Shown: one piece after another, positions 837 to 19,400 of the stretch | Position numbering within the stretch: position 1 is the first letter of the stretch | Layout: every line of letters begins with the position of its first letter | DNA from: Pratylenchus scribneri | Taxonomy: Eukaryota > Nematoda > Chromadorea > Rhabditida > Pratylenchidae | DNA: 64,000 nucleotides | NCBI GenBank assembly: GCA_030063045.1 | Contig: JAQSEB010000134.1 | Location: 62,001 to 126,000 of the forward strand | Direction of reading: 5' to 3' | Notes under the pieces: model-generated | The model's database searches: none | Seen by the model: only the letters and a program-made list of their open reading frames with translations | Told to the model about the DNA's origin: nothing | Position numbers and translations under genes: made by a program

Positions 837-3800
837 ATGCTTCGACAATATCTACACATCAATTCAATTGAACCATCACTGTCATTGTCCCGAAAAACGT
901 ATTCAGAAAACATGTTGGCCAAAATTCGACACATTCGGCGTTTCCCCGAGGATTTTCTTCAAACTTTATTCAAATTATTAATCAAAAGGGTCGTGTCCGA
1001 AGGGCGGAAGAGTTTTCGAGGTCCTCCCTTCCCCCAAAAATTCCCCAATTTTCTTTATAATATTCCAGGAAAGCCCAAATTCATTGGAGTCCAACTCCAA
1101 ACAAAATATATGGACACCCCCTTTTGCATTCCCCTCCGTTCTCCCAGACAGAATAATCCGAAAGCATTGACTGCCGAATTGCTCTCTTTGGCCAAACAGT
1201 CCGGTGGCAGGCTAAGAATATTGAAATCGGCACTGAAATTGAAAATATCAGCGGTTTGGCCATGTAAATTGGAAGGGGATTAAGGGGAAGATGGAAAAAA
1301 CTAATTTTAGTGGACAAAAAAGATACTACAAAAAAGATACGAAAAAGGTGCCGTTTGTTTGGCGCATGTTCCAGTGAGGGAAAATGGCTGTCAAAGGAGG
1401 AAAAGCTCAGAAGGGGGATATTCCCCATTGTGAATGAGGAGGATAATTTGTGCATGGCGCGAAGCATTGGTCTAGGTATTATCAAATGCCTGAAAGGAAT
1501 GGCAACACTGCGCAAGTGGGGTAACGATGAGGAGCGCCAAAAGGCATTGGCAATTTCAATTTTGAAGGTTAAAAATGTGAATAAATTTTGAATTGTTTTT
1601 TCCCAAAAAATAGAAGGCTGGAATTCGAACCGATTTGAAGGCATACAACATGGGACATGTCAAAAAAATTCAAAAATTGTTGAATCGATGGAATTCGAGG
1701 ATTCGAATAGGAATAATTCATGCCGAAAGGGCCTTCAAATTATGTTTCAAAGGCGGAGGCCCAAAAAAATATGATCTATTGCTCCTATTGAATGGTGCCC
1801 ACTATGATTTGATTTATTCAACCAAAAAATTATTCCAAGTGAGTTTTTTGGGGGGATTAAAGATGGAAAAAATAATTTTCTTATAGACAAGAGGCGAATT
1901 TTGCCTAGACTGTGAGGGGCCTGCTTACCGCTGGTCTCATAATCGAAAATGCGTATATTCCTGCCAACTTTGCTATCGCTATGGGGAAAAATATCCATGC
2001 AAGGGGCGAGCTGCGATAAAATGCAATAATTGCCGTTTCTTCTTCTCAAATCGGGATTGCTTCAATTACCACAAAGCCAGAGGGGAAAGGAATGGTGCAA
2101 GCATTTGCGAATCAAGATATTTTTGCCCTAGATGTGAAAAAGTGGTGAGTAAAAGGACAAATTAAATCAAATGTATTTATCTAAAACAGGTTTACAAAAG
2201 AGGAGGAAAACACCAATGTGAACAGTTGGATTCCACGAAAAATGGTGGAATTGAAAAATGTAGCCAATGTTTTGTGATGAAGGCCATTGGCCAACCCCAT
2301 TTTTGCTACATTCAGCCAATTCAACCAAAAGTGGACACACAGGATGTGAGATACATCTTCTTTGATATTGAAGCCAGTCAATCCGATCGGATTGAAGTAA
2401 ATGGAATAAAGGTAAGGGGGAAATAATAAATTATGATTTTTTCAAAAATGAATTCTTGAATTTTGTCAAATAATTTTGATTTTTCCCCCCTAGTGTTATC
2501 GTCATATTCCCGTTCTTTTGGTTGCCGAAGTACTTTGTCAATATTGTATGGATTTGGGGGCTGCGCAATTCAATCGAGCACCCAATTGTTGTTGTGGAGT
2601 ATTCGGTGGAGGCCATTTCAAATGGCGAAAAGCACAGTTGGATCCCGGCAATCCCCGAGTATTATTCTTTCATCAATTCGACAAAAACAACGAGCTAACT
2701 CCGGCCGAACAATTTTTGCATTTTCTTTTCAACTGTGGACCGAAGAATATGCGCACAATTTGCCTTTCCCATAATGGAGGTAAATACGACATGCATTTAC
2801 TTATGGACAAAATTTATGAATGGCAGCTTCAACCAAAGATGATAATGACCGGTTATTTTTGAAATTGAGCGAAAAATTTCTAATTTTTTCAGGCCTAAAA
2901 ATTTATAACATGGAAATTTATGCCAATCGACGCCGAATAGTGATGAAGGACACTTTGAATTGGCTCACGGGCAGTTTGGCAGGATTGGTTGAAACTTTCG
3001 GAATAGGCGCCGAATATGCCAAACCACCTTTTCCACACAAATTCAATAAGGCCAAAAATTTCGGCAAAGTTCTGCCTCATTTGCCGGCATTAAAATACTA
3101 TTGTATAAAGGATATGAAAGTGGATGAAAGGAATGAATTGCTCAGCTGGTACAATGCAAACAGACATCGCGAATTTGATCTGAACCGTGAATTGCTTGAA
3201 TACTGTAGGAATGATGTGGCAATTTTAAAGTAAGTCTATCCTATTTTCACATGAATCAAAATGTTTAAAAATATTTTTCAAGATTCGCATGCATTCGATT
3301 TCGGGAAATAATACGAAGTATTGCCCCCAATGTCGAGCCATTCCTTCACACTTCCACTTTGGCAAAGTTGGCTTTCAATATTTGGAGAATGGAATTTTTA
3401 CTTCCAAATTTGCTTCTCAACATTCCCGAAGAAGGATTTCGGCCCAAACATTTACAATCAGCTCAGGCTCGTCAATTCTTTGCACTTTTCACAAAAATGA
3501 CTGGTCGACGAGTGAGAACAGTGGACACCTCCGTTGATGGCGAACACATTTCAAAGGCTCATGAGGGCAATTCAAAACATGGAAAAGGAGATTTTCGAGC
3601 GGATGGACTGCTCGAACCACGCACACCCGACGAACAACCAACCATTTTGGAGTTTTATGGTTGTTATTATCATGGTAAGTCAAAGGGAATGAAAAATGAA
3701 TTAAATGAGCGCAAAAAAGGTTGCGCTAAGTGTTTTGTCAATCGGGAACAGCAACTTCAAAGAGGCAGAACTGCGGAGGAGCTGTTTGAACGAACCCGAC

Positions 3801-5673
3801 AACGACGAATTGAGCTGGAACGCCGGGGCTACAAAGTGTTGGAAGTCTGGAATTGTGAGCTGCAAAAAATGTTGAGAGAAAACAAAAAGGCTCGCAAATT
3901 GTGGAATTCGTTGCAACTGCCCCCACCACCACTCAACCCCAGAAAGAACGCATTGAGAGGGGGGAGGGTAGAGCCCTTTGTATTATTCACTGAGGCGGGA
4001 CCCGATGAACGAATTGAACTCTTCGACATTGTAAATTTTTGGGGATTTTGGGTGAGAAAAATCTTTTTAAAAATATAGGTGAGCCTGTACCCAAGTGTGA
4101 TGAAGAGTTCACCATATCCACTTGGTGCGCCGATGGTGTACGGAGAAGAGGATTTCCGGCGGCTGGGCCTTCCCAAATTGCCATGGCATGCACCCTTCCC
4201 CAAAGGAATGGAAGGATTGATGCTCGTCAAAGTTTTGCCACCCCCAAAAATGCCAATGCCTGCCGGTGCCCAACAACCATTTCCCCCATTTCTTCCATAC
4301 AAAACGCGTGAAGGGCTGCTGGTTTTTCCACTTTGTGCCCGCTGTTCCGACACTCAAAATCAAAAGCGATGCACACATGAGGATGAGAAGAGGGCTTGGA
4401 TTGCTGCATTCCCGCATCAAGACCTTGAGATGGCACTCGAATTGGGCTACACCATTCTCGAACTTTATGAAGTGAGTTTTCGGGGGGATGTATAAATTTA
4501 CTCATAAAATCCCTATAGTTTTGGCATTGGCCCCAGGAACAATGGACAAATTCAGGACCAAATAAAGATTTGTTCCGGGAATATATCAATGCCATGTTAA
4601 AATTAAAGGTAAAAAGGGGGTGATTAAAAATCCACAAAATCCCAAAAATTTCACAGGTTGAAGCGTCGGGTTGGCCCTCAAATATGGATTCGGATGAGGC
4701 TCGGCAGGAATTCATTCGGCAATATGCGGAACGAGAAGGAATTGTGCTGGGTGCCACCACAATGGACAAAATCAACAAAGGATTGAGGATGATCGCGTAT
4801 GTTCCGCATTTTTTTGGTGTGGGGAAATTTCCAATGATTTTAGTAAACTCCTGTTGAATAGCCTATGGGGTAAGATGTCACAAAGGCCGAACCCATCCAC
4901 TGTCATCATCACCAAATCCGCCAAACAACTACATGAATTATTGGAGGATCCGACCCGAGAGGTTGTGGATTTTTGCCATTTGAATGCATTCCTGGACCGG
5001 GTGGTTGTTCGCCAGAAGCCTGAATTCCTAAAACCTCCATCCACCAACAATGTAGTGATCGCAAGCTTTGTCACTTCACATGGTCGGAGGCGCACATATC
5101 AGGCAATTCAAGAGGCAATTCGACTTGGTCATCAACTCATTTACACGGACACCGATTCAATTGTGACAAAACGACGAGTGGATCAACCCCGAATCAGTGA
5201 AGGTAGAAAATGAAATATTTGGGGGGTGAAAAATTCGTTATCTTAGGACAATTTCTCGGTGACATGCAAAGGGAACTTGAAAACCGCATTGTCAAACGAT
5301 GGCTTGCAGCAGGCCCAAAAAATTACGCTTACGAACATACCGATTTGGAGGGCGGAGATCTGGAACTCACACGACGCATCAGGGGCTTCAAACTCAGCTA
5401 TCGTGCTTCAAAACGGCTCACATTTGAGAAAATGCGCGCGGAAATGTTTTCGCGTTTTGGTGGAGAGAAGAAAAGGTGGGGCAAAATCGGAGGATGAAAA
5501 ATAAAATAATTTTTTAAAGAAAATGCCAATTCATTCGATACAATGTGTTTAGACGGCATAAGAAGGGCTGGCTTTATACAACCACAATGAATAAAGAATA
5601 CAGTGCTGTTTGTGGCAAATCGATTATCCAAGGAGACTATACCACAAAACCATTTGGATGGATTGGAGATTAG
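837..5673 (+). CDS. polB: Protein-primed DNA polymerase B of the Maverick, 14 exons
   Basis: Replicates the element. Exons read: 837-1263, 1311-1567, 1614-1838, 1887-2144, 2190-2411, 2494-2851, 2893-3229, 3283-4030, 4079-4471, 4519-4608, 4657-4796, 4844-5202, 5247-5475, 5553-5673. Introns are 41-82 nt with gt..ag ends and the frame is unbroken (about 1,387 residues, usual for this family). Exonuclease motifs: FFDIEAS (about residue 445), HNGGKYD (555), YCRND (685). Polymerase motif A, FDIVSLYP, is split by intron 8 (944); motif B KLLLNSLWGK is split by intron 11 (1,152); motif C is YTDTDS (1,252). A cysteine-rich zinc-binding stretch lies at about 1,890-2,230, and the C-terminus ends in TTKPFGW, as in relatives. 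A ttttcag at 788-794 just upstream of the first ATG could be a trans-splice site; an in-frame extension back to 795 or an unseen first exon remains possible. Confidence 0.93.
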
Positions 5674-6513: not shown

Positions 6514-7839
6514 CTAGGCTAGATTTGAATCGGAAACTATATGGCGATTATAGTCAATCATGACCATTTGGTCAAATTCGCCTAACACTAGCATTTCCAC
6601 ACCACCAGCGGGGATGGCTGTGTTGAATAGTACCCGAATGCTGGTTGTTCCACTCCTAAGCAATTCAAATCCACACGAATCATCGAGAGTGGAAGTTAGC
6701 GGGATGACAAAAAAGGTCCAGCCTTCTTTGAATTTTTTCATGGAAATATCGAAAGAACGTTCCGAGTTTGCCACCCCCAATGCTTCATACATGTCCAAAA
6801 AGGGGCGAGTGTAGGAATCATTTGTAAATTCCATCTTATAGGGGACCACTGGGTAAATTTGGCCTCCAGCATGTACGGCTATTTCTCGAATATCGAAAGG
6901 TTTGAAATTGAATGGGGATTTGGTGGAATAGCCATTAAATGCCTCATTTTCCACAAAAGCCACGGTTATGCGACGAGGAATACTTGCACTAAACGCATTA
7001 TAGTCAATTGAGGTTCTACCTGCGCTCAGAAAACAGGATTTCATTTCAGTTTTACGAACGGAATAGGTGGCTGGCTGTTGTTCCAAAGTCTTATAGATGG
7101 ATAGGTTGAGGGATGGTTGAACCTCTACCATTTTTGCATAAATTTTGACATCCTCTACATAGAGGCGATATTCATTCAAATCGGCTGCACCGCCTAATTT
7201 ATGAATGCAAAAAGAATCTTTCGATCTGAATATGCTGAACAGCACATCCATATTGTTCAAAAGGAGTAATTCCTGATTTCCAAAATCAAAATCTAAACGC
7301 GAAAGGAATTGGGCCTTTTTTCCTGAGGCAAATTGGGACACAATCCCCAGGAAACCTGTGTCCGTTGAATCATTATGTTTTTTGAGTGGATAATAGCCTG
7401 AAGAGGCTAAAAAATTAGATTTCACATTATCGGGATAGGAGAGCTCAGTGGTCATATAGGTTTTATAGGGATAAAGTGTTCCGCTATCGTACAAATCCGT
7501 GTTTCCTATTGTCACTTTAAGTTGCTGAACAAAACTTTGTCCAATGCATTGGATGGTACCCACGAGAAGATCGGTTGCTTCAATTGGGACCCAGTTGTTC
7601 CCAGATTTTTTTTGAATTCTCAATTCTAAATAGAGGTAAATTCGGGACAAATCAGTCCACAAATTATCGCTGAATAAGCGGAATAGATATGGTGATTCTT
7701 GGGTAATAGTGCTCAGAGGTAGAATTTCGCGATAATGTGAGCGGAGTATTGACACATTGGTAGGAGGGACAGTAAAAATGCTGAGTGCTGTGTCAATAGC
7801 CAAAGGACTTTTTTCGCTTATTTTCTTTGGACAGCTCAT
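6514..7839 (-). CDS. mcp: Major capsid protein (double jelly-roll, hexon-like)
   Basis: 441 residues, single exon, no breaks. It forms the capsid shell in Maverick/adintovirus relatives. The recognisable family pattern is a long beta-rich protein with an N-terminal part containing SHYREILPLSTITQESPYLF and a central LDFDFGNQELLLLNNMDVLF, at the position expected next to the core-like protein and protease. Its start lies 7 nt after the stop of the upstream gene (7,847), so little space exists for a separate promoter. No signal peptide or membrane segment is seen. Assignment rests on gene order, size and motif memory of Maverick capsids. Confidence 0.85.
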   Translation of the reverse strand: MSCPKKISEKSPLAIDTALSIFTVPPTNVSILRSHYREILPLSTITQESPYLFRLFSDNLWTDLSRIYLYLELRIQKKSGNNWVPIEATDLLVGTIQCIGQSFVQQLKVTIGNTDLYDSGTLYPYKTYMTTELSYPDNVKSNFLASSGYYPLKKHNDSTDTGFLGIVSQFASGKKAQFLSRLDFDFGNQELLLLNNMDVLFSIFRSKDSFCIHKLGGAADLNEYRLYVEDVKIYAKMVEVQPSLNLSIYKTLEQQPATYSVRKTEMKSCFLSAGRTSIDYNAFSASIPRRITVAFVENEAFNGYSTKSPFNFKPFDIREIAVHAGGQIYPVVPYKMEFTNDSYTRPFLDMYEALGVANSERSFDISMKKFKEGWTFFVIPLTSTLDDSCGFELLRSGTTSIRVLFNTAIPAGGVEMLVLGEFDQMVMIDYNRHIVSDSNLA

Positions 7840-8429: not shown

Positions 8430-8441
8430 TTTATTTATATT
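8430..8441 (-). promoter_or_regulatory. TATA-like box upstream of the core-like protein gene
   Basis: Minus strand reads ATATAAATAAAAT about 42-52 nt before the start codon at 8,389 and overlaps the end of the protease gene. Motif is seen; use is inferred. Confidence 0.4.
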
Positions 8442-8901
8442 AATTGCCAAATATTTTAGCATCGACAAATTTGTTAATAAACCGGTCAATGGAACCGGGG
8501 ATCGATTTAAGGAAGCGAAGAGTTTCCTCAAAAGATTTGCCCTTCGAACGAGCATAGAGAAAAAATATGGCATGTTGACCACAAGATTTGGAATATTCAC
8601 CTTGTAGGGCATAAGGATTGAAGCGGATTCGTTTAAATTTTGACAAATATTGTGTAATATTCGAATTCAGTGGAGGCCAAAGCCCCAATGAATCGTAATA
8701 GTCAACATCGTTAGGCGAAATTGAAAAAATGGCTACCCAATGGGAACCTTTGAATTCGGAAGGATCAAAATTGACAACCATTGAATGGGGATATTTCCCC
8801 TGGGAAATTTTTAATAGTTGATCCGAAGCAAAGCAGCCCAGATAAAAAGGAGCAGTTATGTGATTTCTTTTCAGAATTTTGTCTATTTGGCGACTTTCCA
8901 T
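8440..8901 (-). CDS. pro: Adenain-like cysteine protease (virion maturation)
   Basis: 153 residues from the ATG at 8,901 (MESRQIDKIL). This start matches the family N-terminus; an upstream in-frame ATG at 8,964 would overlap the penton gene and adds unrelated residues. The catalytic set is visible: His54 in GSHWVA, Asp70 in YYDSLG, Gln100 in ALQGEYSKSCGQH and nucleophile Cys107 in SCGQHAIFFL. This is the adenovirus-protease fold (C5), expected to cut capsid and core proteins. It lies 20 nt after the stop of the penton-like gene. Confidence 0.93.
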   Translation of the reverse strand: MESRQIDKILKRNHITAPFYLGCFASDQLLKISQGKYPHSMVVNFDPSEFKGSHWVAIFSISPNDVDYYDSLGLWPPLNSNITQYLSKFKRIRFNPYALQGEYSKSCGQHAIFFLYARSKGKSFEETLRFLKSIPGSIDRFINKFVDAKIFGN

Positions 8902-8921: not shown

Positions 8922-10055
8922 CTAAAAATAGGCAGCTTTTCGGAAATGTAAAGTCAATATACAATTTCCAAACATGAATGGCATCAATACACCATTGGCG
9001 GTGCGAATTTCAATAAAAATTTCACTGATTTCCTTCACCAGTAATTTATGATATTGAATTGCGAAGAATTGTTCCTCTACAATTTCATCGGGTGCACCTC
9101 GAATTGTGACGGCACGCAAAATGGGGGCAGTCACATCACCAAACATCATTGGCTCTATCAGACCAGGCGCATAAACCAGAAATGAGGAAACTCCTCCCTT
9201 TAAATCTGGCATGAATTTAGCCACGGTAGTTTCCGTTAAAACTTGTCCCTCAAATCCAAGAATGTATGAGAGCTGTTCACTCAATTCAACCTGTTGAATA
9301 AAACCCGAGTCCAAATGAAATGTGAAACGATTATGGGTTGGATCAAATTGAAGCCGGCAAGCAAAATTTACATGCCGATAAGCATGAATCCATGGCTCTA
9401 GGCCTTTTTGTTTAGTTTGATCCAAAATTGAGCGATCTTCATCATCAAGCTGCGCGATTTCCTCATTCAAATAGCGATTGTAGAGTTCCTCTAAAGTTGG
9501 TAAATTTTCGGAGGAAGTTGGCTGCTCTTCTTCCTCCATTTGGGAACTTTCTCTTTCCTGTCGTTCCAGAACAGTTTGAGCCCCTTCTAAATCGGAGACT
9601 TCTTCAATGTCTTTGACTAGAGAGGGAGCTTTCCTTTTCTGGGGCTTTTCTTTAGCAATTTTCGCATGTTCCTCTCGGGCTCGTTTTTCGGCCTTTTTAA
9701 CAACTTCATGAAACGAGAACTGAGTGGTTCTTACTTTCTTTGCCAGCTCTTCACTCCCAGATTGCAATGCTTTCGTCATTGCCTTGGTCAATTCATGAGG
9801 ATTAGTGAATGTACTTGAGGGGAGTTCAATTCGGACTTTTTCACCCGTTTTCCATACAACATTCAGAAATTGCTGAGTGTTTGTACCCAATGAGGGCCAT
9901 GTGTGAGGATAAACCAACACGGCCAACCCCACTGACCATTCCGAATTGAATTGAAGTTTATGTGGGAGGCGAACTCTAAAAGAATTTGTCTTATTCCCAT
10001 CAACATTGGTATTTGAGGGTAAAATAATGTAGAAAGATGTGGAAGAAGTCGTCAT
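8922..10055 (-). CDS. Minor capsid (penton-like) protein
   Basis: 377 residues, single exon. The N-terminal part (FYIILPSNTNVDGNKTNSFR, then LPHKLQFNSEWSVGLAVLVY) is the typical start of Maverick minor capsid proteins. Residues about 115-215 are a highly charged Lys/Glu insertion predicted to be flexible or coiled. The C-terminal part returns to a beta-rich pattern (FHLDSGFIQQVELSEQLSYI). Located 50 nt downstream of the integrase stop on the same strand, as expected for the virion cluster. Confidence 0.82.
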   Translation of the reverse strand: MTTSSTSFYIILPSNTNVDGNKTNSFRVRLPHKLQFNSEWSVGLAVLVYPHTWPSLGTNTQQFLNVVWKTGEKVRIELPSSTFTNPHELTKAMTKALQSGSEELAKKVRTTQFSFHEVVKKAEKRAREEHAKIAKEKPQKRKAPSLVKDIEEVSDLEGAQTVLERQERESSQMEEEEQPTSSENLPTLEELYNRYLNEEIAQLDDEDRSILDQTKQKGLEPWIHAYRHVNFACRLQFDPTHNRFTFHLDSGFIQQVELSEQLSYILGFEGQVLTETTVAKFMPDLKGGVSSFLVYAPGLIEPMMFGDVTAPILRAVTIRGAPDEIVEEQFFAIQYHKLLVKEISEIFIEIRTANGVLMPFMFGNCILTLHFRKAAYF

Positions 10056-10104: not shown

Positions 10105-11235
10105 TTATTCTTTCCAATAAAGTTCACTTGACGGAATCCAGCTATTATATTCAGGGCCATAGCCCTTCCATTTAACAAACAAATATTCCACATCGTCTTT
10201 TTTTCGATTTTTTAAAATTTTTTCAATATCATAAAGGGGCATTTCCGTATTCGTTTCTTTCTTACGAATTCTACTGAAATCGGATGAGTAAAATTTACCC
10301 TTTATTATTTCACCTTCCCTATCTCGAATTCTATATGTGATGGGTTGATAGGGAACTTTGTCTCGTACCTGGTCAATAATGAATATTTCATTGGTAAAAT
10401 TTGGGGTATATCCTTTTTGGAAAATATGTTTATGTTTCTCAATTCGAACACTATCGCCAACTTTGAATTTTCCCAAATCGGATTTGTTTTTAAATTTTTC
10501 GATAGCTTTTTGTTCAAGTTTTCGTCTAAGTGTCTCGGCATTTTCAAAATTTACATCCACTGGCCTCATGCCGATCGAACGATTTATTGTGTGGTTTATA
10601 GAGTTCACAATTTTCTGGATCACTCCGATCCAATTCTGCGTTTGTCTTTCCGTAAAGAGACGATATAGACGTTCTTTGATGGTTCTATTGGCACGTTCTG
10701 CCATTCCAGCATGGAATTTTGGGTTTAGCATACAAAAATGTTGAATTTCATTTCTGCTAAAATATTCTTGAACTTGTTTTGCCATAAATTCTTTTCCCTG
10801 ATCCGTTTTCAGTTTCCAAGGTAAATGGCCTACTCGAGAAAATATTTTTTCAAATGCTTTCACCATGTCGGGTGCTGATTTTGTCTTGACTGGCTCAACA
10901 AAAATTTGTCGGGAGAGGGAATCGATGCAAACCAACAAATATTTGTAGCCCCGATTTTGGCGAGAAAGTCGATCCAAAATTGCCAAATCGGCTTGCCATT
11001 CAGTGTGTAAGCCAGGGGCGAGTGTTGGAAGTGTGGGATAGCGGCGAACAGCTCTTCTATGAAGAGTATAAGCATGCTGGGATTCTAGATATTTTTTCAC
11101 ATCATTTTGTGTAATATCTTTTCGAATTTTTTTCGCTTCGCGATAAAGTGGAACAACAGAGGTATATGCAGATGTGGAATTTATATCTTTATAGAGGCGA
11201 TCGAGAATTTGACTTTTGGATTTCATCACTTCCAA
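10105..11235 (-). CDS. int: Retroviral-type (rve) integrase with C-terminal chromodomain
   Basis: 376 residues, no breaks. Catalytic triad: Asp83 in WQADLAIL, Asp145 in KTDQGKEF and Glu180 in HAGMAERANRT, with D-to-E spacing of about 35. A chromodomain at about 332-374 (YDIEKILKNRK ... VKWKGYGPEYNSWIP) suggests targeting to marked chromatin. A classic HHCC zinc finger is not obvious. The ATG overlaps the end of the preceding gene (stop at 11,226-11,228) by about ten bases. It is not a Ty3 retrotransposon: there is no reverse transcriptase, and the neighbours are capsid and ATPase genes. Confidence 0.95.
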   Translation of the reverse strand: MEVMKSKSQILDRLYKDINSTSAYTSVVPLYREAKKIRKDITQNDVKKYLESQHAYTLHRRAVRRYPTLPTLAPGLHTEWQADLAILDRLSRQNRGYKYLLVCIDSLSRQIFVEPVKTKSAPDMVKAFEKIFSRVGHLPWKLKTDQGKEFMAKQVQEYFSRNEIQHFCMLNPKFHAGMAERANRTIKERLYRLFTERQTQNWIGVIQKIVNSINHTINRSIGMRPVDVNFENAETLRRKLEQKAIEKFKNKSDLGKFKVGDSVRIEKHKHIFQKGYTPNFTNEIFIIDQVRDKVPYQPITYRIRDREGEIIKGKFYSSDFSRIRKKETNTEMPLYDIEKILKNRKKDDVEYLFVKWKGYGPEYNSWIPSSELYWKE

Positions 11236-12141: not shown

Positions 12142-12537
12142 TCATCCAAATGTTTTTGAAATTATTTTCTCCGCAAGAACTGGCAATATTATATTAGCCA
12201 ACAATGCTGGCACCAGTGGGAGACCTTCACCCTTTTGCGGGATTCCTCTATGTAAAATGGCTCTAGCTGTTTTGCTTGAACGGCAGCGGGACAGTTTTCT
12301 TAAAGTTCCAGCTTGCTTTTTTAGGGAATTCAGCGAACGTTTAGGAATGGGAATACGTCCCTTCAACAAATTGAAACAAGTTTCAACTAGACATAGCAAC
12401 TCTTTACCCGTTGCGCTATTCAGTAAAGCTCTGATTTTTGGGCGAGATTTTTCACATTGCTGAATATTTTTCAAAAAATGGATATTCTCTTTTATTAGGG
12501 GACTAAATTTAATCAGCTTTTTGGCTTTTTTGGTCAT
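12142..12537 (-). CDS. Small basic Maverick protein with hydrophobic C-terminal tail
   Basis: 131 residues. Lys/Arg-rich throughout, with a Cys-containing helix (LCLVETCFNLLKGRIPIP) and a C-terminal hydrophobic tail (LVPALLANIILPVLAEKIIS). Short basic proteins with such PALLA-type tails recur beside Maverick/adintovirus virion genes and may be core or membrane-penetration components; that link is from memory. The start ATG overlaps the ATPase stop codon in an ATGA arrangement (12,534-12,537), so translation of both from one mRNA would need reinitiation. Confidence 0.72.
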   Translation of the reverse strand: MTKKAKKLIKFSPLIKENIHFLKNIQQCEKSRPKIRALLNSATGKELLCLVETCFNLLKGRIPIPKRSLNSLKKQAGTLRKLSRCRSSKTARAILHRGIPQKGEGLPLVPALLANIILPVLAEKIISKTFG

Positions 12538-13262
12538 TTTGGCAAATAAACGGTGGTTGGTTGACCATCGTCAGAGTATATATTTGTTCTGAGACGCAGC
12601 GAGTCAACTGTTGCTGGATGGATATCAATTAGTAAATAGCCAAAATTTTTACGAATGGCATCCGAATATGCCTCTAAAAAATAGGGCACTTTGGAGGGAA
12701 ACAATTGTACGGCCAGATTCCGAATCTGTAATGCACCAGCCGGATTGCGTAATAGAACAATATAGTGAGAATTATTTCGAGGAATTCTTAGTTCTTTAGT
12801 AAATAAATGCTGCGTAACCAAAACGACACTTACTCCACAATTATGGGAGGCTCGAGTGAATAGCGAGTCCAAAAAGTCTTTATTGCCTCCAATACCTGTC
12901 ATAAGATCATCTAGCACAACTAAAAGATGACCATTTGTCTGTTTAGCATGAGTTCGCAGCAATTCCTCACTAGGAAAGCCATGATATGTCAGAAGACGAA
13001 TTCCACCATCATCTATTTGACCCCTTCTTTGCATTTGTAGAATATTAGGGTTCAATTCCCCATAACAATAAAGGATAAGATCTATTGGAGAGGGTCCCGC
13101 TTCTCCATTTCCTATTATTAATTTCCGAAAATTTTTAAAAAGTCGGAGAATCCATTCCGATTTACCGCTTCCAGTACTGCCAGAAACAATCATAGTGAAG
13201 GGATGACGAAATCCCAATTGGAAGGATTGAATTTCTTCACCCAGAAGATTTGAAGAAGCCAT
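12534..13262 (-). CDS. atp: DNA-packaging ATPase (FtsK/HerA, A32-like)
   Basis: 242 residues. Walker A GSTGSGKS at residues 28-35 and Walker B HLLVVLDDLM around 112-121, followed by an Asn/Gln-containing sensor region (VSVVLVTQHLF). Family members pump genome DNA into the capsid. It is the first gene of the minus-strand block; the 117-nt gap to the divergent PAZ gene holds a TATA element. No truncation. Confidence 0.94.
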   Translation of the reverse strand: MASSNLLGEEIQSFQLGFRHPFTMIVSGSTGSGKSEWILRLFKNFRKLIIGNGEAGPSPIDLILYCYGELNPNILQMQRRGQIDDGGIRLLTYHGFPSEELLRTHAKQTNGHLLVVLDDLMTGIGGNKDFLDSLFTRASHNCGVSVVLVTQHLFTKELRIPRNNSHYIVLLRNPAGALQIRNLAVQLFPSKVPYFLEAYSDAIRKNFGYLLIDIHPATVDSLRLRTNIYSDDGQPTTVYLPK

Positions 13263-13379
13263 TTTTATTTCCCTCCCATAAGGGGTATTGCGTATATATA
13301 GTGAGGGAAATTATTTCAGATATTTCATTTCATCATTTTTAAAAAATCCTTTCTTTTATTTCATCATTTTCCAAAAAAA
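13263..13379. promoter_or_regulatory. Divergent promoter between ATPase and PAZ genes
   Basis: The gap contains gcgtatatatag at about 13,288-13,300, a near-palindromic TATATATA about 30 nt from the ATPase start codon (minus) and about 85 nt from the PAZ start (plus). On the plus side attatttcag ends at about 13,320, a good acceptor for spliced-leader addition roughly 60 nt before the ATG at 13,380. Motifs are visible; promoter and trans-splicing use are inferred. Confidence 0.5.
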
Positions 13380-14230
13380 ATGGAGTTTATGCTGGCTAAT
13401 GATTGGCTCCAAGTGATCAACAACACCTCAAACAATTCCCAGGAGGCAGACATTTCCACCCCAATCGCCGAAAAGGTAAATGTGATTTTTTTTTCTCTCT
13501 AAAATTATTTCTTTTAGAAAAATGCCGTGGAAATTCAAATGGATGAGGCTGATGATTCGGAGCATGAAGACATTTTGAAGATTTTGGAATCCGATGACGA
13601 TGACCTGATCACTGTACGGGATGAGAATGAGAAAGAGGAAAAGCTAGATGAGGGAAAAGAGAATCGCGTTCCCCCGAAAGGACAGCCAAACCTGGGTTTT
13701 TCATTTGGATTGAATTAATTTTCGATTACAATATTTTAGATGGGAAGAAGGAATGCAAATGCAAGGAAGAGCAATCCCATTGGACTCCGCTGATTGACCA
13801 CCTTTGCGAAAAATTTGGATGTTCGGTGAAAGAGCTGCAAATCATTTTCAATGGGCTTGAGACTCGGCGGGAAGTCATTGCATATTTGCGGGAGAATGTG
13901 GCCCTGAAAACCTCACATTTGAAACCAGCTGGCCGCAATTTCATCGTCCGATGCTGTGATTTGACCAATCTCCCGGCCAGTTGCGTTCCGGCTTTGGGCG
14001 GTTATTTGAATGTGACGGTTAGTTTTTTTCACTTAAGTTAAAGCAATTTTCTTCTCCATTTTTTTTCACAGGTACGGGCCTACTATTTCATCAAGCACGG
14101 GATGAAGCTCCGTCATCCATATTTCCCATGTGTGATCCAATATGGCGGTGGGCGGCACCAATCGTACTTCCCCCTTGAGGTCCTGCAAGTTGCAAGCCGA
14201 CGAATTAAGAAGAATCAATTCAAATGGTGA
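13380..14230 (+). CDS. Stand-alone PAZ-domain protein carried by the Maverick
   Basis: Exons 13,380-13,475, 13,518-13,695, 13,740-14,017 and 14,072-14,230 keep one frame and give 236 residues. Residues 1-90 are a polar, very acidic leader (ESDDDDLITV). From about residue 108 the protein follows the L1/PAZ part of Argonaute proteins: PLIDHLCEKFG, then FIVRCCDLTNLPAS, then YFIKHGMKLRHPYFPCV, then SYFPLEVLQVASRR, i.e. the conserved aromatic, Pro and P-x-E elements of the pocket that holds small-RNA 3' ends. There is no MID or PIWI domain and the gene ends right after PAZ, so it cannot slice. It probably binds RNA; as an element gene it could mask host small RNAs or siRNA duplexes (inference). 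The usual Cys of the PLEVC motif is Leu here. Introns resemble those of PolB. A captured host fragment without function is the alternative. Confidence 0.82.
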
Positions 14231-14341: not shown

Positions 14342-15056
14342 ATGAAAATTGAAAATTGCAGTGTGGTTTTCCGTCTTTTCCCTTCCAATTCCCCCAAAAA
14401 AATTCCGCACCAACAATACCTAGCAATTGCCCGAAATGGATGGAATTTGGAATATTGTCCCCGACGTTTTCATGCAATCACCATGCGATTCCCTGTCCAA
14501 AATGCGGAAGGAAAAAGCAATGTAATTGCCGCTTTGATTTTCAAATCAGGAAAAGTCGTTTTGACTGGTGTTCCCTGTCCCGGTTTGTCCTTTCCCTTTT
14601 ACTATCCCCCCAAAGAAATTTTGAGATTTAGAAATGGCTGAATTTGCTGCGAGAAAAGTTTCAAGAAATTTGAGAATGGCTGCCCGAAGAGGTCAACACC
14701 CGTTCGAAAAGAGGGATGGACTGATCTATGGAATGCGAATTGTGAACATTGTCGGGGCACATCAAATGCCGCATCGCCTTGGAATTGAGCGAATTAATGA
14801 ACTTTGGCGTTTCAAAAAAATGGAGGGAATTTTGGCAGATGATGCCCGACTTCGGCTGATTTCCAAAAGCACATATGACCCGACAATTTTCCCAGCGCTT
14901 CGTTGTAAAATTTTCATCAATGATGGCACCAGCGCAGTTGCCAGTATTCTTGTGTACATAACAGGCAAAATAATTGTTACTGGAGTTCAAGAAGTCAAGC
15001 AACTTGAAGAAATTTTCAATTCATTAATTCCACTTCTTTCCCAATTCCCTCGCTAA
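14342..15056 (+). CDS. TATA-binding-protein homologue (core domain only)
   Basis: Two exons (14,342-14,582 and 14,632-15,056; 49-nt intron) give 221 residues with the two-repeat saddle of TBP. Repeat 1: YLAIARNGWNLEYCPRRFHA and ALIFKSGKVVLTG, linked by FAARKVSRNL. Repeat 2: RIVNIVGAH, YDPTIFPALRCKI and LVYITGKIIVTGV. Of the four phenylalanines that kink TATA DNA, three have counterparts (Phe43, Phe67, Phe167) and the fourth is Tyr189. Repeat 2 has an extra loop of about 15 residues (138-158). There is no N-terminal extension. It is far more diverged than a host TBP would be. ATG follows ctatttag directly and the stop of the PAZ gene is 112 nt upstream, a spacing typical of nematode operons. 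Probably recognises promoters of the element; this is inference. Confidence 0.85.
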
Positions 15057-16447
15057 ATTATTTTATTTTAATTTGAAGAGACAAAATAAATTATTATTTA
15101 TGCGAAATAAAATTCATTTCATACAATTATACTATACAATTCAAGTACATAGACATCAGTTTTTACCATTCACTTCGCCATCAATTTCCCCAAAAACATC
15201 GATTACCTATCCGTTCATTCATAAAGAGGAAAAAACCCAGCAAAATTTTTAAAAAAAGACTTTAATATTTTGACACAAAATTCACATTCCCTCGAGTCAT
15301 AATAAACATTGCCCACAAGGGCACCATTGTCCTCAATGGCACCAAGGTAAACGTTTTGATCAATGCCCAAAATCGGCATCATCCTCCACCTCCCACATTT
15401 GTTCATTTAAAAAAATCCTTCCTCCACCTTCAACAAACCCATCACATACCTATTCGCTTCACCATCTTTTTACATTCGACACAAAAATGTCGAAAAAAAA
15501 AGATGTGGTAACACAATACTACTTATCATTTTTCAAAATTTTTATGTATTTATATTTTTACGTTTAAATATTTTATGTGACATAAAATTTATCAGGTTGC
15601 ATTTCAATTGAATCACCCATAGGCAAAAGGTACATCTCATCAGCCAAACGAATTTGAAATAAATTGCACCAATTCATTCTTTCTTAATAATTTGGCCATA
15701 ACATTTTGAATTTTAAGGCTAATCCATTTATTTTCTTCACTCCTTTAATACTAGACCTCATCAAGCCATCTTTCATTTAACAAATATTAAATTCCACAAT
15801 GATTCCAATCGTAAATTTAAAAAATCTGAATTTTTTCCTTCACAATTGATCACTTAGTCTTGAGGCATCATTTTTGACTCATTCATATTTCAATGAGACA
15901 ATTAGCAATAGACGAAGGTGATATGGATGGCTATTGGAATTCCCGAAATGTCCTCTATAATTTAGCATTTTTTAGATTTTAAACATAAATTTTACTATAA
16001 TTAAACTCGAATTTTCAGAGTAAAAGTTGTCATTTATGCTAATTTGTCCCTAAAAATATTTCCTTCAAAATGAGTAAATCTTGAAAGGAATAGGAAGAAA
16101 ACATTGCTCTCATCCTTCCCTTTTTTGTATTAATCTTTCCTTCCATCCGCAGCTTTCAATTTTCCTTCCCATTTTCTCCCCTCTGGGGCTCTGGCCACAC
16201 ACTCAACAATTATTCTGGGAAATGGGGAAAGAGGCCAAAATTATTCAGCAGAGAGTGTTGGGTTTGGGTCAAATGCAATCGATTGGGCTTTGGAGAATTT
16301 TGTTATGTTGACTTCTTCACAGTTCTTCCCCATCTACGCTACAACAAGAAAATTATCCATTTTTTGGGTTTTAATAATTTTATAAACAAAAATACATTTT
16401 TTAAATTATATTTCTTTTTATAAATATTAGATTAAATTTAACTAAAC
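15057..16447. other. Intergenic DNA right of the Maverick genes
   Basis: AT-rich and without a convincing gene. A stop-free plus-strand stretch of about 85 codons at 15,260-15,515 (containing VNVLINAQNRHHPPP) has no ATG and no clear splice sites. A short open segment from the ATG at about 15,892 (MRQLAIDEGDMDGYWNSRNV) could be an isolated exon. The right end of the element should lie here or beyond, but I see no terminal repeat. Confidence 0.5.
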
Positions 16448-19400
16448 ATGGAAAATAACCAAGCAGAGCCAGGCCAAGGGAATAGTGACAATAGCGATCA
16501 AATCAACAACAATGAAATTAACATGGGAAATAACCAAGGAGAACATGGCGATCAAATCAACAACAACGACAATGGCGCAATAGAAGTTACTAAATACGGA
16601 AAAAAAAAATATAAATGCAGGTTAAAATGGGCAAATTAGGCATAATTTGTTTGGGATGATATTTAATTTGGCGAAACTTGGAAATGGCGAAAAATGTATT
16701 TAAAATGTCGGACTAATCGTTAATCCTTGAAAACAAAGCCTAGATCAAATCAACAGATTTCACTAAGTTTCATCGAATGATATTTAATTTGTAATGGTTT
16801 GGTCAAATTAGAAGAATATTAAGCCATTCAAATTTTATTATGTTTTTGCTTCAAAACTAATTAATTAAAATTTGTTAATCTTAAGCTTAATTATTATCAT
16901 TGAGCCTCGAATATATGGTTTGAACTTCTAGGACTAACCATTAAATTATTAAAATCTTATTGCCATTTTCGCTAGTATTATTGTCATTTTAAATCTCCAA
17001 TTTATTTATAGGAATTCATACAAATTTCAATTTTTATATTTCAGACAATGCCCTTTCAGAGGGCTAAAATTCCATTTGATAGATCATGGCAAAATCCACA
17101 ACCGTAATTTTTTGAATATTTCACATAAAAATTAGACTTTTTAAGGTGATTTGCCACTGAAATGTGAAGATTGTGATGCCTCATTCCATGAACATAATCC
17201 GGTAGCAAAAATGAATCATAAAAAAGTTCATGAAGCAGAAACAAAAAGAGTTAATCGGGTGGCTTGCCTAGACTTTAAGTTTTGAATAAATTTTTTCTCA
17301 TTTCAAAGGTGCAAGTGGCAAAGAAACTTCAAAAGGCAGTGGTGACTATGCCAGCAGCAAAAAAATCGGTGACAAAAGTGACTTCTATCGAAATTGATTG
17401 GGGTCCATCCAAAAGAAATGGGGCAACATCAATTAATGACAGCAAACGCAAACGTATTGAACCCAAAGATGGTCAGCCGGTCGAGGTTTTGGTCATTTTC
17501 AATTTTTAATTAATTTTCCAAAAAGAAGAAATCCGTGGGTCGTCCCCGTAAATTGGTTCCACATAAGTCCATTGAATTGCCCACAAATGTTGATGCCTCA
17601 AATGGCAAAAAATGCATGGGCGAACTCGAAGATGACAATGGTACGAAAATCTGCGGACCGTCTAAGGTTATTTTGACAATAAATATTAAAATATTTTAAG
17701 GCAAAGATCTAGAATTGTGGTCCCAAAAAAATTTTTTGGATTTTTCAAAATATGGTTTCTGAAGGTTTTCGGGGGCCTAGAACACGAATCTGACATCCAT
17801 TTTGTCATCTTAGTAAGATAATGCCGACTCCTTAACAAGAAAAACCTAAGGGGGACCAAGGAAAATTTTAATGCAAAAATTTTTTAATGTAACAAAATTG
17901 TTTAAATTTGAATATTATCTTACAAAAATGATACCATTCGATTCGGCATGATGAGCTGCGTCGATTGAGCTCTAATATGACTATATAAAAATATTTTCAC
18001 CAAAATTGCCCTTGGTCCTCACTTCCCGGATCAACGCTATTTTAGTATATTCAAAAAATTGATTTTATTATACAAATCCCAGTTGATTTTAATTGTTGCC
18101 AAAAAATCGAATTTTAGATCAATCTTCCATATCTCTAAATTGTCATTAAAATTCCCACAATTATAAAAATTTTCAAAACATTGTAGAATTAAATTTTGGG
18201 AAAATCCGCAAAACCGTTTTTCACTTTTATTCTCAAAAAAAGTTAAAAAATGGCGAAAATATTTTTGGACTAAATTTTGGCAATACGATTTATTTTAGAA
18301 AGATTCTCACCAAAAAATAAATTTTCACAAATTTTCCAAATTATATTTTCAAAATATTTGCTAAAATATTTCAGGAATATTTTCCAAAATATTTTTTATC
18401 GCCAAAATTATTTTTTCATTAAAATTTGGAAAAATTTGTTACAATTTATTTCAGAAAAAAACTGACAAAAAATAAATTTTCACAAATTTTCCAAATATTT
18501 TCTAAAATATTTTAAAGAATTTTTTCCAAAATATTATTTATGGCCAAAAATATTCTCAAAATTGTCACATTCTTCGAAATATTTTCTGACAAATTTTGGC
18601 AAAAATTCCAACAATGTGCATAAGCACAAATTTTCGGAATTTATTACATTTCCAAAATAAATGTGCAAAATATTCTCAAAATAAAAATGAAAACAAAAAT
18701 AAAAATTTTTCCCAATATATTAATTTATTCCTAAAAATATTGTCACGATTCACAACTTTCTCATATTTATTCCCACGATCCGAAATATTTCCAAAAATAT
18801 TCTCACGATAGTTAACATTTTCAACATATTTCGAAAATATTTCACATTTTGATAAATATATTTGAACCACATTTTCCAAAAAATTCCGACTACAAATAAA
18901 AAATTTATTTTGAAAATGAGAAATATTCCCAAAAAAAATCGCCACGATGGCAAATATTTTGACCAAATGGTCACGATTTTACATATTCTCACTAATATTT
19001 CCTTTTTATGCTATTAATATTTTTTGTCAGACTATTTTGAGAAATATTTTTTGAACAAATTCCCGAAATTATTTCCAAAATCTGGTTAAAATATATTATT
19101 CAGAACATGTAAATTTTAGGAAATATTTTTCAAAATCTAGAATATTTTCATGATATCGGCAGATTTATTTGTATTCTGAGGTCGGCATACAATTGCCAAT
19201 ATTCGCATATTTTGGAAAATATCGTGGGAATTTATCGGAAGTTTGAGACTCCGGGTTTACGTTTTCTTGGTAAAAGTCGGCTACCTTACCAAGATGGCAA
19301 GATATGACAAAATGGATATCAGATTCGTGTTTTGCAACCACACAGTAAACCCTCAGATACTAATTTTAGAACAAAACAACAAAAAATTCAAAACAAAAAA

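Follow-up and report, generated by a model that had tools for sequence, protein, structure and literature searches.

Mavericks, which are related to DNA viruses, reside in animal chromosomes, and what times and drives the expression of their own genes is, as far as we know, an open question. A locus in the nematode Pratylenchus scribneri raises this question in a specific form: does a Maverick carry a TATA-binding protein (TBP) of its own, and would such a protein serve the element's promoters? The window, by which we mean the whole 64,000-nucleotide stretch of contig JAQSEB010000134.1 that was analysed, had been interpreted from its letters alone as holding a Maverick-borne TBP at positions 14342 to 15056 that would let the element drive its own transcription.

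The TBP-family gene and its residues

The predicted gene consists of two exons on the plus strand. Exon 1 (14342..14582), which ends at a predicted splice site, holds the N-terminal repeat and matches Pfam PF00352 with an E-value of 6.5e-8 (32.7 bits), and exon 2 (14632..15056) holds the end of repeat 1 and the whole C-terminal repeat and matches the same profile with an E-value of 1.8e-10 (41 bits). Each exon separately exceeds the curated cut-off of 22.9 bits, and the motifs quoted in the sequence-only reading for a two-repeat TBP were all found, so the profile search that it had proposed supports its claim. Between the exons lies a predicted 49-bp GT..AG intron (14583..14631, plus strand) that joins halves lying in two different reading frames into a product of 221 aa; an earlier acceptor would give a 43-bp intron and leave the frame likewise open. 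The prediction of an intron is supported by an intron-free relative from the same genome that runs in a single frame (family C, L037, 191 aa). In family A, which comprises 19 genes at least 87% identical to exon 2, 18 genes were read, one with an early stop, and in all 18 the frame is restored by the same donor and a nearby acceptor, with intron lengths that differ. Across 15 distinct sequences among the 17 full-length copies, mean dN is 0.027 and mean dS is 0.224 (dN/dS 0.12), and judging from these rates the family-A copies are under purifying selection.

At E-values up to 0.01, exon 2 matches 35 distinct PDB sequences and exon 1 matches 31, with solved TBPs as the match in both cases. The fold evidence comes from AlphaFold models of a full-length family-C relative, P0001, and of exon 2 of the window gene alone. 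The P0001 model (pLDDT 96.7) forms the TBP saddle, its leading PDB matches include human, yeast and plant TBP entries, and it compares with human TBP (1cdw) at a TMq of 0.79 and 26% identity; the exon 2 model (pLDDT 87.5) has TBPs as its top PDB matches, with E-values from 4e-6. This confirmed that positions 14342-15056 hold a TBP-family gene. Chance similarity to TBP was considered and is ruled out by profile, fold and selection. The description of the protein as core-only, highly diverged and bearing an extra loop was likewise borne out, with 30% identity to the canonical host TBP over 171 aligned residues.

Residues were counted over the 29 rows that form the window's group in our trees (13 from families A-E, two of which are close relatives, 11 from Meloidogyne and Heterodera, and five others). 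Among the phenylalanines that kink DNA, Phe1 is present in 29 rows, Phe2 in 28 and Phe3 in 29, and the fourth position holds Tyr in 23 rows against Phe in six; the window protein has F, F, F and Y, the three retained Phe and one Tyr that had been noted before. The central Asn pair is found in 25 rows (with three gaps) and 29 rows, and the Thr pair in 28 and 28, all four of these residues being there in the window protein. From structural work on TBP we take the Asn and Thr residues to contact the minor groove, the YEPELF motif to dock TFIIB, and a further Asn and Glu to lie on the TFIIA side. The docking motif reads YDPTIF in the window protein, departing from that of canonical eukaryotic TBP, and across the group its first E is changed to D in 25 rows, its second E to T in 26 and its L to I in 24; the Asn and Glu on the TFIIA side are retained in 24/29 and 27/29 rows. 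The same docking positions are E, E and L in family F and N, E and I in family G, nearer to cellular TBP. These counts indicate that, group-wide, the DNA-contact face is conserved while the TFIIB-docking motif is altered. TLF/TRF2 proteins have lost the kinking Phe, and a host protein that we label TLF-like by resemblance has F, Y, M and H at Phe1-4 versus F, F, F and Y in the window protein; a TLF identity for the latter was ruled out by its retention of three kinking Phe.

The Maverick element and its copies

The gene lies in a 20,709-bp Maverick whose left end, located by DNA search against sister copies, is at C134:56815, about 5.2 kb beyond the window. The right terminal inverted repeat (15187..15523, about 337 bp) is separated from the end of the TBP gene by 130 bp, has AGTAGTATTG at its start, reading inward, and recurs inverted at the left end; it is followed by the 6-bp target-site duplication TATCAT (15524..15529), and an identical 6 bp precede the left end. 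Paired terminal repeats were found in 12 copies, that of the window included, 11 of them with repeats about 20.6-21.0 kb apart and one with repeats 17.2 kb apart, and four further contigs have one terminal repeat only. The element starts with AG, and 6-bp duplications were present in all six copies whose ends were examined, three by script and three by eye on the same output. These repeats, duplications and copies bear out the placement of the gene inside a Maverick. In the right flank, beginning about 120 bp past the end of the element, positions 15643-17897 are 99% identical to C10:25121-27378, which may reflect duplication of host sequence or mark a related empty site.

On the minus strand, the element encodes an integrase with a chromodomain (10105..11226), with rve (E 1.3e-13) and Chromo (E 8.7e-8) matches both above cut-off, and a predicted packaging ATPase (12534..13262) that matches Pox_A32 with an E-value of 1.2e-4 and 22.1 bits, slightly below the cut-off of 22.8. 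The same strand carries a putative Ulp1/adenain-like cysteine protease (8440..8901), with weak, sub-cut-off matches to Peptidase_C48 (E 0.015) and Peptidase_C5 (E 0.075); a predicted major capsid protein (6514..7839), named from its size and place, which has no Pfam or NCBIfam match, to double-jelly-roll capsids or otherwise, and is 37% identical over its full length to the family G protein in the same slot; and a conserved ORF of the structural block (8922..10055), a presumed minor capsid protein that has no Pfam match above cut-off and a counterpart of similar start in the same slot of family B. Pieces of a type-B DNA polymerase, its reading frame fragmented, lie on the plus strand (2548..5213); one (2820-3230) matches DNA_pol_B_2 with an E-value of 1.6e-11 and 44.3 bits against a cut-off of 25.8, and another (4875-5210) matches the PolB of L019 at 38% over 96 aa, YTDTDS included. 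Immediately upstream of the TBP gene, also on the plus strand, is a PAZ-like gene (13380..14230) with predicted introns and exons left unjoined, whose last exon (14072-14227) matches PF02170 with an E-value of 1e-4 and 22.7 bits, below the cut-off of 28.8. The 117-bp gap that separates it from the divergent ATPase gene contains TATATATA (13293..13300). PAZ is an Argonaute-type RNA-end-binding domain, and this gene could conceivably act in the handling of small RNAs. Pfam recognised no RNA polymerase gene among the ORFs of the window, 5.2 kb of the element lying outside it.

A search of the genome (227,248,964 bases, 276 contigs) returned 128 PF00352 matches that fall into 70 TBP-like gene clusters. 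At least 53 of the 70 have a Maverick ATPase match within 12 kb, a lower bound since the ATPase matches were the best 150 of 301 and the best 150 of 304 candidates: 45 clusters lie 0.9-1.6 kb from the ATPase on the opposite strand, C82 lies 0.3 kb from it on the same strand, another lies on the opposite strand at 5.3 kb, and six family G clusters lie on the same strand at 8.3 kb. By our own sorting, the other 17 clusters comprise six host-looking genes, four of family F, four that lie no more than 0.9 kb from the end of a contig, and, from family C or D, three with no ATPase match among those listed (C112, C95 and C80). Presence in other Maverick copies, proposed as a check when the gene was first noticed, was found dozens of times in the genome, the 12 copies with paired repeats among them. 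Of the 150 ATPase matches listed, 97 lie more than 12 kb from any PF00352 match, so TBP is dispensable for Maverick life in general.

The host-looking genes comprise a canonical pair (C10:1389 and C41:1379), a pair for a second TBP (C33:1590 and C115:697), the TLF-like gene (C10:3118) and a TBP-like gene on C179; those at C10:1389, C33 and C10:3118 were read through. The second host TBP (C33:1589809-1590440 and C115:697496-698119) bears introns, and its C33 copy is 68% identical to the canonical TBP. Evenly spaced ATPase matches occur on C63 (21485, 41629 and 61773; spacing 20,144 bp) and on C138 (32192, 70601 and 109010; spacing 38,409 bp), which suggests either that elements are arrayed head to tail or that the spacing is an artefact of assembly. 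Ten ATPase matches fall within open frames 637-681 aa long (C150:1025755, C130:338835, C142:688544, C109:1541876, C172:98689, C45:1645415, C102:193919, C83:2094, C164:700817 and C273:2705), in which the ATPase is probably fused to another domain.

Relatives and origin of the element TBPs

A protein search with a family-C TBP returned 44 relatives, under names that include Meloidogyne enterolobii, M. hapla, Heterodera trifolii and H. schachtii. TATA-box-binding protein is already the automatic name of some of these relatives, and those of Meloidogyne and Heterodera are known as protein models. In the Heterodera gene model P0019, the middle part of the PAZ-like gene stands ahead of TBP (49% over 75 aa), and the model P0012 combines the end of PAZ (26.1 bits, below cut-off) with TBP; as both models fuse parts of the upstream gene to TBP, the order of these neighbours is shared. 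No relatives of the TBP were found in IMG/VR.

In a tree of 44 rows, a single group distinct from cellular TBPs unites families A-E with the Meloidogyne and Heterodera proteins; its support is 100/99, rising to 100/100 once seven long-branch rows were removed (P0039, P0040, P0034, P0032, P0037, the host TLF-like protein and Pythium P0056). Both trees leave out G_L014. The phylogeny that the sequence-only reading had proposed covers cellular TBPs and, in the 44-row tree, the host TLF-like protein, with no named giant-virus TBP among the rows. The trees place families F and G to the side of the cellular TBPs. A single origin of all element TBPs (A-E, F and G) has an AU p of 0.18 with the 44 rows and of 0.048 without the seven long rows, where joining the group with F gives 0.19 and with G 0.066. 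One origin is therefore not rejected with all rows and only weakly rejected without the long ones. The intron of the family G TBP (L013 and L015, near 4550-5330, minus strand) sits at the position of the host TBP intron, after QLEG in phase 1, which hints that this TBP was taken separately from the genomic DNA of the host. In family F (L011, L012, L017 and L019), the TBP is about 169 aa long, lacks introns and stands next to a large PolB ORF (1310 aa in L019), the polymerase being observed in three loci inspected, and L017 and L019 carry small ORFs that look F-box-like by eye. No Maverick ATPase match lies near the family F loci among the matches listed, and family F is possibly another kind of element.

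Proposed role and comparison with known systems

Of 38 Maverick ORFs, 17 have TATAWA at 30-60 bp upstream of the ATG against 3.5 expected from dinucleotide shuffles, and none of 2000 shuffled sets had as many; these ORFs were hand-picked from one element in each of six families (A and B being related), one start is off by one base, and the range of -60 to -30 was fixed after inspecting the data. The 100-bp upstream regions contain 38 TATAWA starts, 19 of them at -31 to -50. The motif precedes 10 of 24 ORFs in TBP-bearing Mavericks (1.7 expected) and 7 of 14 in TBP-less ones (1.9 expected), and no TATA signature peculiar to TBP-bearing elements was found among these 38 ORFs of six families. TBP-less Mavericks have the boxes just as often, so host TBP is probably able to recognise them, and their presence in both classes suggests a general trait of Maverick genes here, with carriage of a TBP as an addition in some lineages. 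A part for the protein in the element's own transcription is weakened by these boxes in TBP-less elements, by the ATPase matches that have no PF00352 match nearby, and by the window TBP gene itself, which lacks TATAWA in the 100 bp before it.

Other Mavericks of the same genome hold genes related to the partner of TBP at the promoter, TFIIB. Of eight PF00382 matches in the genome, four fall within three Maverick ORFs (L078:564-1322, L079:1985-2743 and L080:696-1376), and the other four have no ATPase nearby among the matches listed. The TFIIB-like proteins of C157 and C48 are 252 aa each, and their genes stand immediately after a gene in the PAZ position, which in C157 is PAZ-like by eye without a Pfam match and in C48 likewise by eye, about 0.5 kb from an oppositely oriented ATPase; they occupy the slot that TBP has in family A, and no TBP lies within 12 kb of either ATPase. 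In C150, a TFIIB-like protein of 226 aa is encoded immediately after a gene whose PAZ match is above cut-off, with the ATPase about 8 kb off. All three pass the cut-off for the TFIIB repeat, and C150 alone passes that for the zinc ribbon. This arrangement suggests that such elements take control of the TBP-TFIIB step through whichever of the two partners they captured. PF02170 matches also occur near a number of other Mavericks, TBP-less ones included, and inspection by eye of five PAZ neighbourhoods of other elements (L081-L085, 2.4-2.8 kb each) revealed no TBP or TFIIB ORF.

With a probability of roughly 0.6, we read the window gene as a Maverick-borne TBP that is predicted to bind the element's TATA boxes and likely to start transcription with host Pol II; DNA binding, the choice of Maverick promoters and the use of host Pol II are all three what we infer. 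That the protein would drive the element's own transcription, as the sequence-only reading had supposed, fits both the TATA boxes before Maverick genes and the conserved DNA-contact residues. In the simplest reading the captured TBP would seed initiation at these boxes using host Pol II, and the group-wide change at the TFIIB-docking site leads us to expect a re-tuned initiation complex, not one identical to that of the host. An element might gain from carrying the gene if host TBP were limiting or tied up in TFIID, if the altered TFIIB side released it from a host check, or if its capsid genes were to be fired together.

The altered TFIIB-contact motif also counts against plain use of host TFIIB and leaves room for another role. 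As a decoy or repressor, Maverick TBP could sit on TATA boxes without a normal initiation complex and so damp host transcription or hold Maverick genes off until they are needed, a rather unlikely course in our estimation; the conserved DNA face beside a docking motif whose E, E and L are replaced by D (25 of 29 rows), T (26) and I (24) speaks for it, as does the fact that TBP-less Mavericks manage without the protein, but the TFIIA-side Asn and Glu are retained in 24/29 and 27/29 rows, and the TFIIB-like factor that other Mavericks encode next to a PAZ or PAZ-like gene fits the promotion of initiation better. The same TFIIB-like genes, together with conserved minor-groove Asn and Thr residues and TATA motifs at promoter distance, argue against an architectural protein that bends DNA for replication, integration or packaging instead of transcription. 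TBPs do bend DNA, which counts for such a function, and the gene adjoins a terminal repeat; we nevertheless hold it to be quite improbable.

A fixed host TBP paralogue, or a processed pseudogene, near or in the element is hardly credible, even in a host with several intron-bearing TBP genes, given a gene within terminal repeats, 12 copies with paired repeats, a dN/dS of 0.12, a well-supported group separate from host TBPs and a Maverick ATPase near at least 53 of 70 clusters. The terminal repeats, the many copies and the separate tree group rule the host-gene reading out, and with it the fixed host gene outside the element that had been named as the finding that would overturn the assignment.

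Beyond the window gene, a broader interpretation, to which we give slightly less than even odds, is that Mavericks of nematodes have taken control of the opening step of gene expression in the host. Lineages with their own TBP or TFIIB-like gene beside a PAZ or PAZ-like gene would then have private promoter recognition within the host Pol II machinery, TBP having been captured more than once (in the A-E group; in family G, with the host TBP intron position; and in family F, beside PolB). Self-encoded TBP, and TFIIB-like genes beside the same neighbour elsewhere, would make the promoter choice of a transposon directly testable; basal transcription factors would be cargo of 20-kb elements and not of large viruses alone; and nature would supply a series of diverged TBPs whose TFIIB-docking sites are altered.

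Viral TBPs are known from giant viruses, African swine fever virus (ASFV) and mirusviruses, and we found no report of a TBP or TFIIB in Mavericks, Polintons or Polintoviruses among open-licence PMC papers, in agreement with the statement in the sequence-only reading that TBP-like genes occur in some giant viruses and in no Maverick known to it. PMC5825884 describes ASFV pB263R as retaining three Phe, so three-Phe TBPs have been described; PMC10132985 gives TBP for 59% of mirusvirus genomes, and PMC11464507 has a megavirus expressing TBP and TFIIB. The carrier here is a 20-kb integrating element, unlike the large viruses among which giant viruses, ASFV and mirusviruses fall. The point in common with giant-virus TBPs is a virus-encoded TBP, and structural matches in BFVD include Heterosigma akashiwo virus TBP (TMq 0.77), but the viral structural matches listed have 6-17% identity versus up to 28% for cellular ones. 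With TLF/TRF2 the window protein shares the status of a TBP-fold paralogue, and it differs in having F, F and Y where the host TLF-like protein has Y, M and H at Phe2-4. Like cellular eukaryotic TBP (PF00352), it has the two-repeat saddle, as modelled for the relative P0001, the Asn and Thr pairs and three of four kinking Phe; unlike it, it is encoded by a transposon, with about 30% identity to host TBP, inserted loops, Tyr for the fourth Phe and a changed TFIIB-docking motif. The element itself agrees with known Mavericks and Polintons in its AG-starting terminal repeats, 6-bp duplications, rve and chromodomain integrase, PolB, predicted ATPase, and protease-like and capsid-block ORFs, and it differs from them in carrying a TBP beside a PAZ-like gene.
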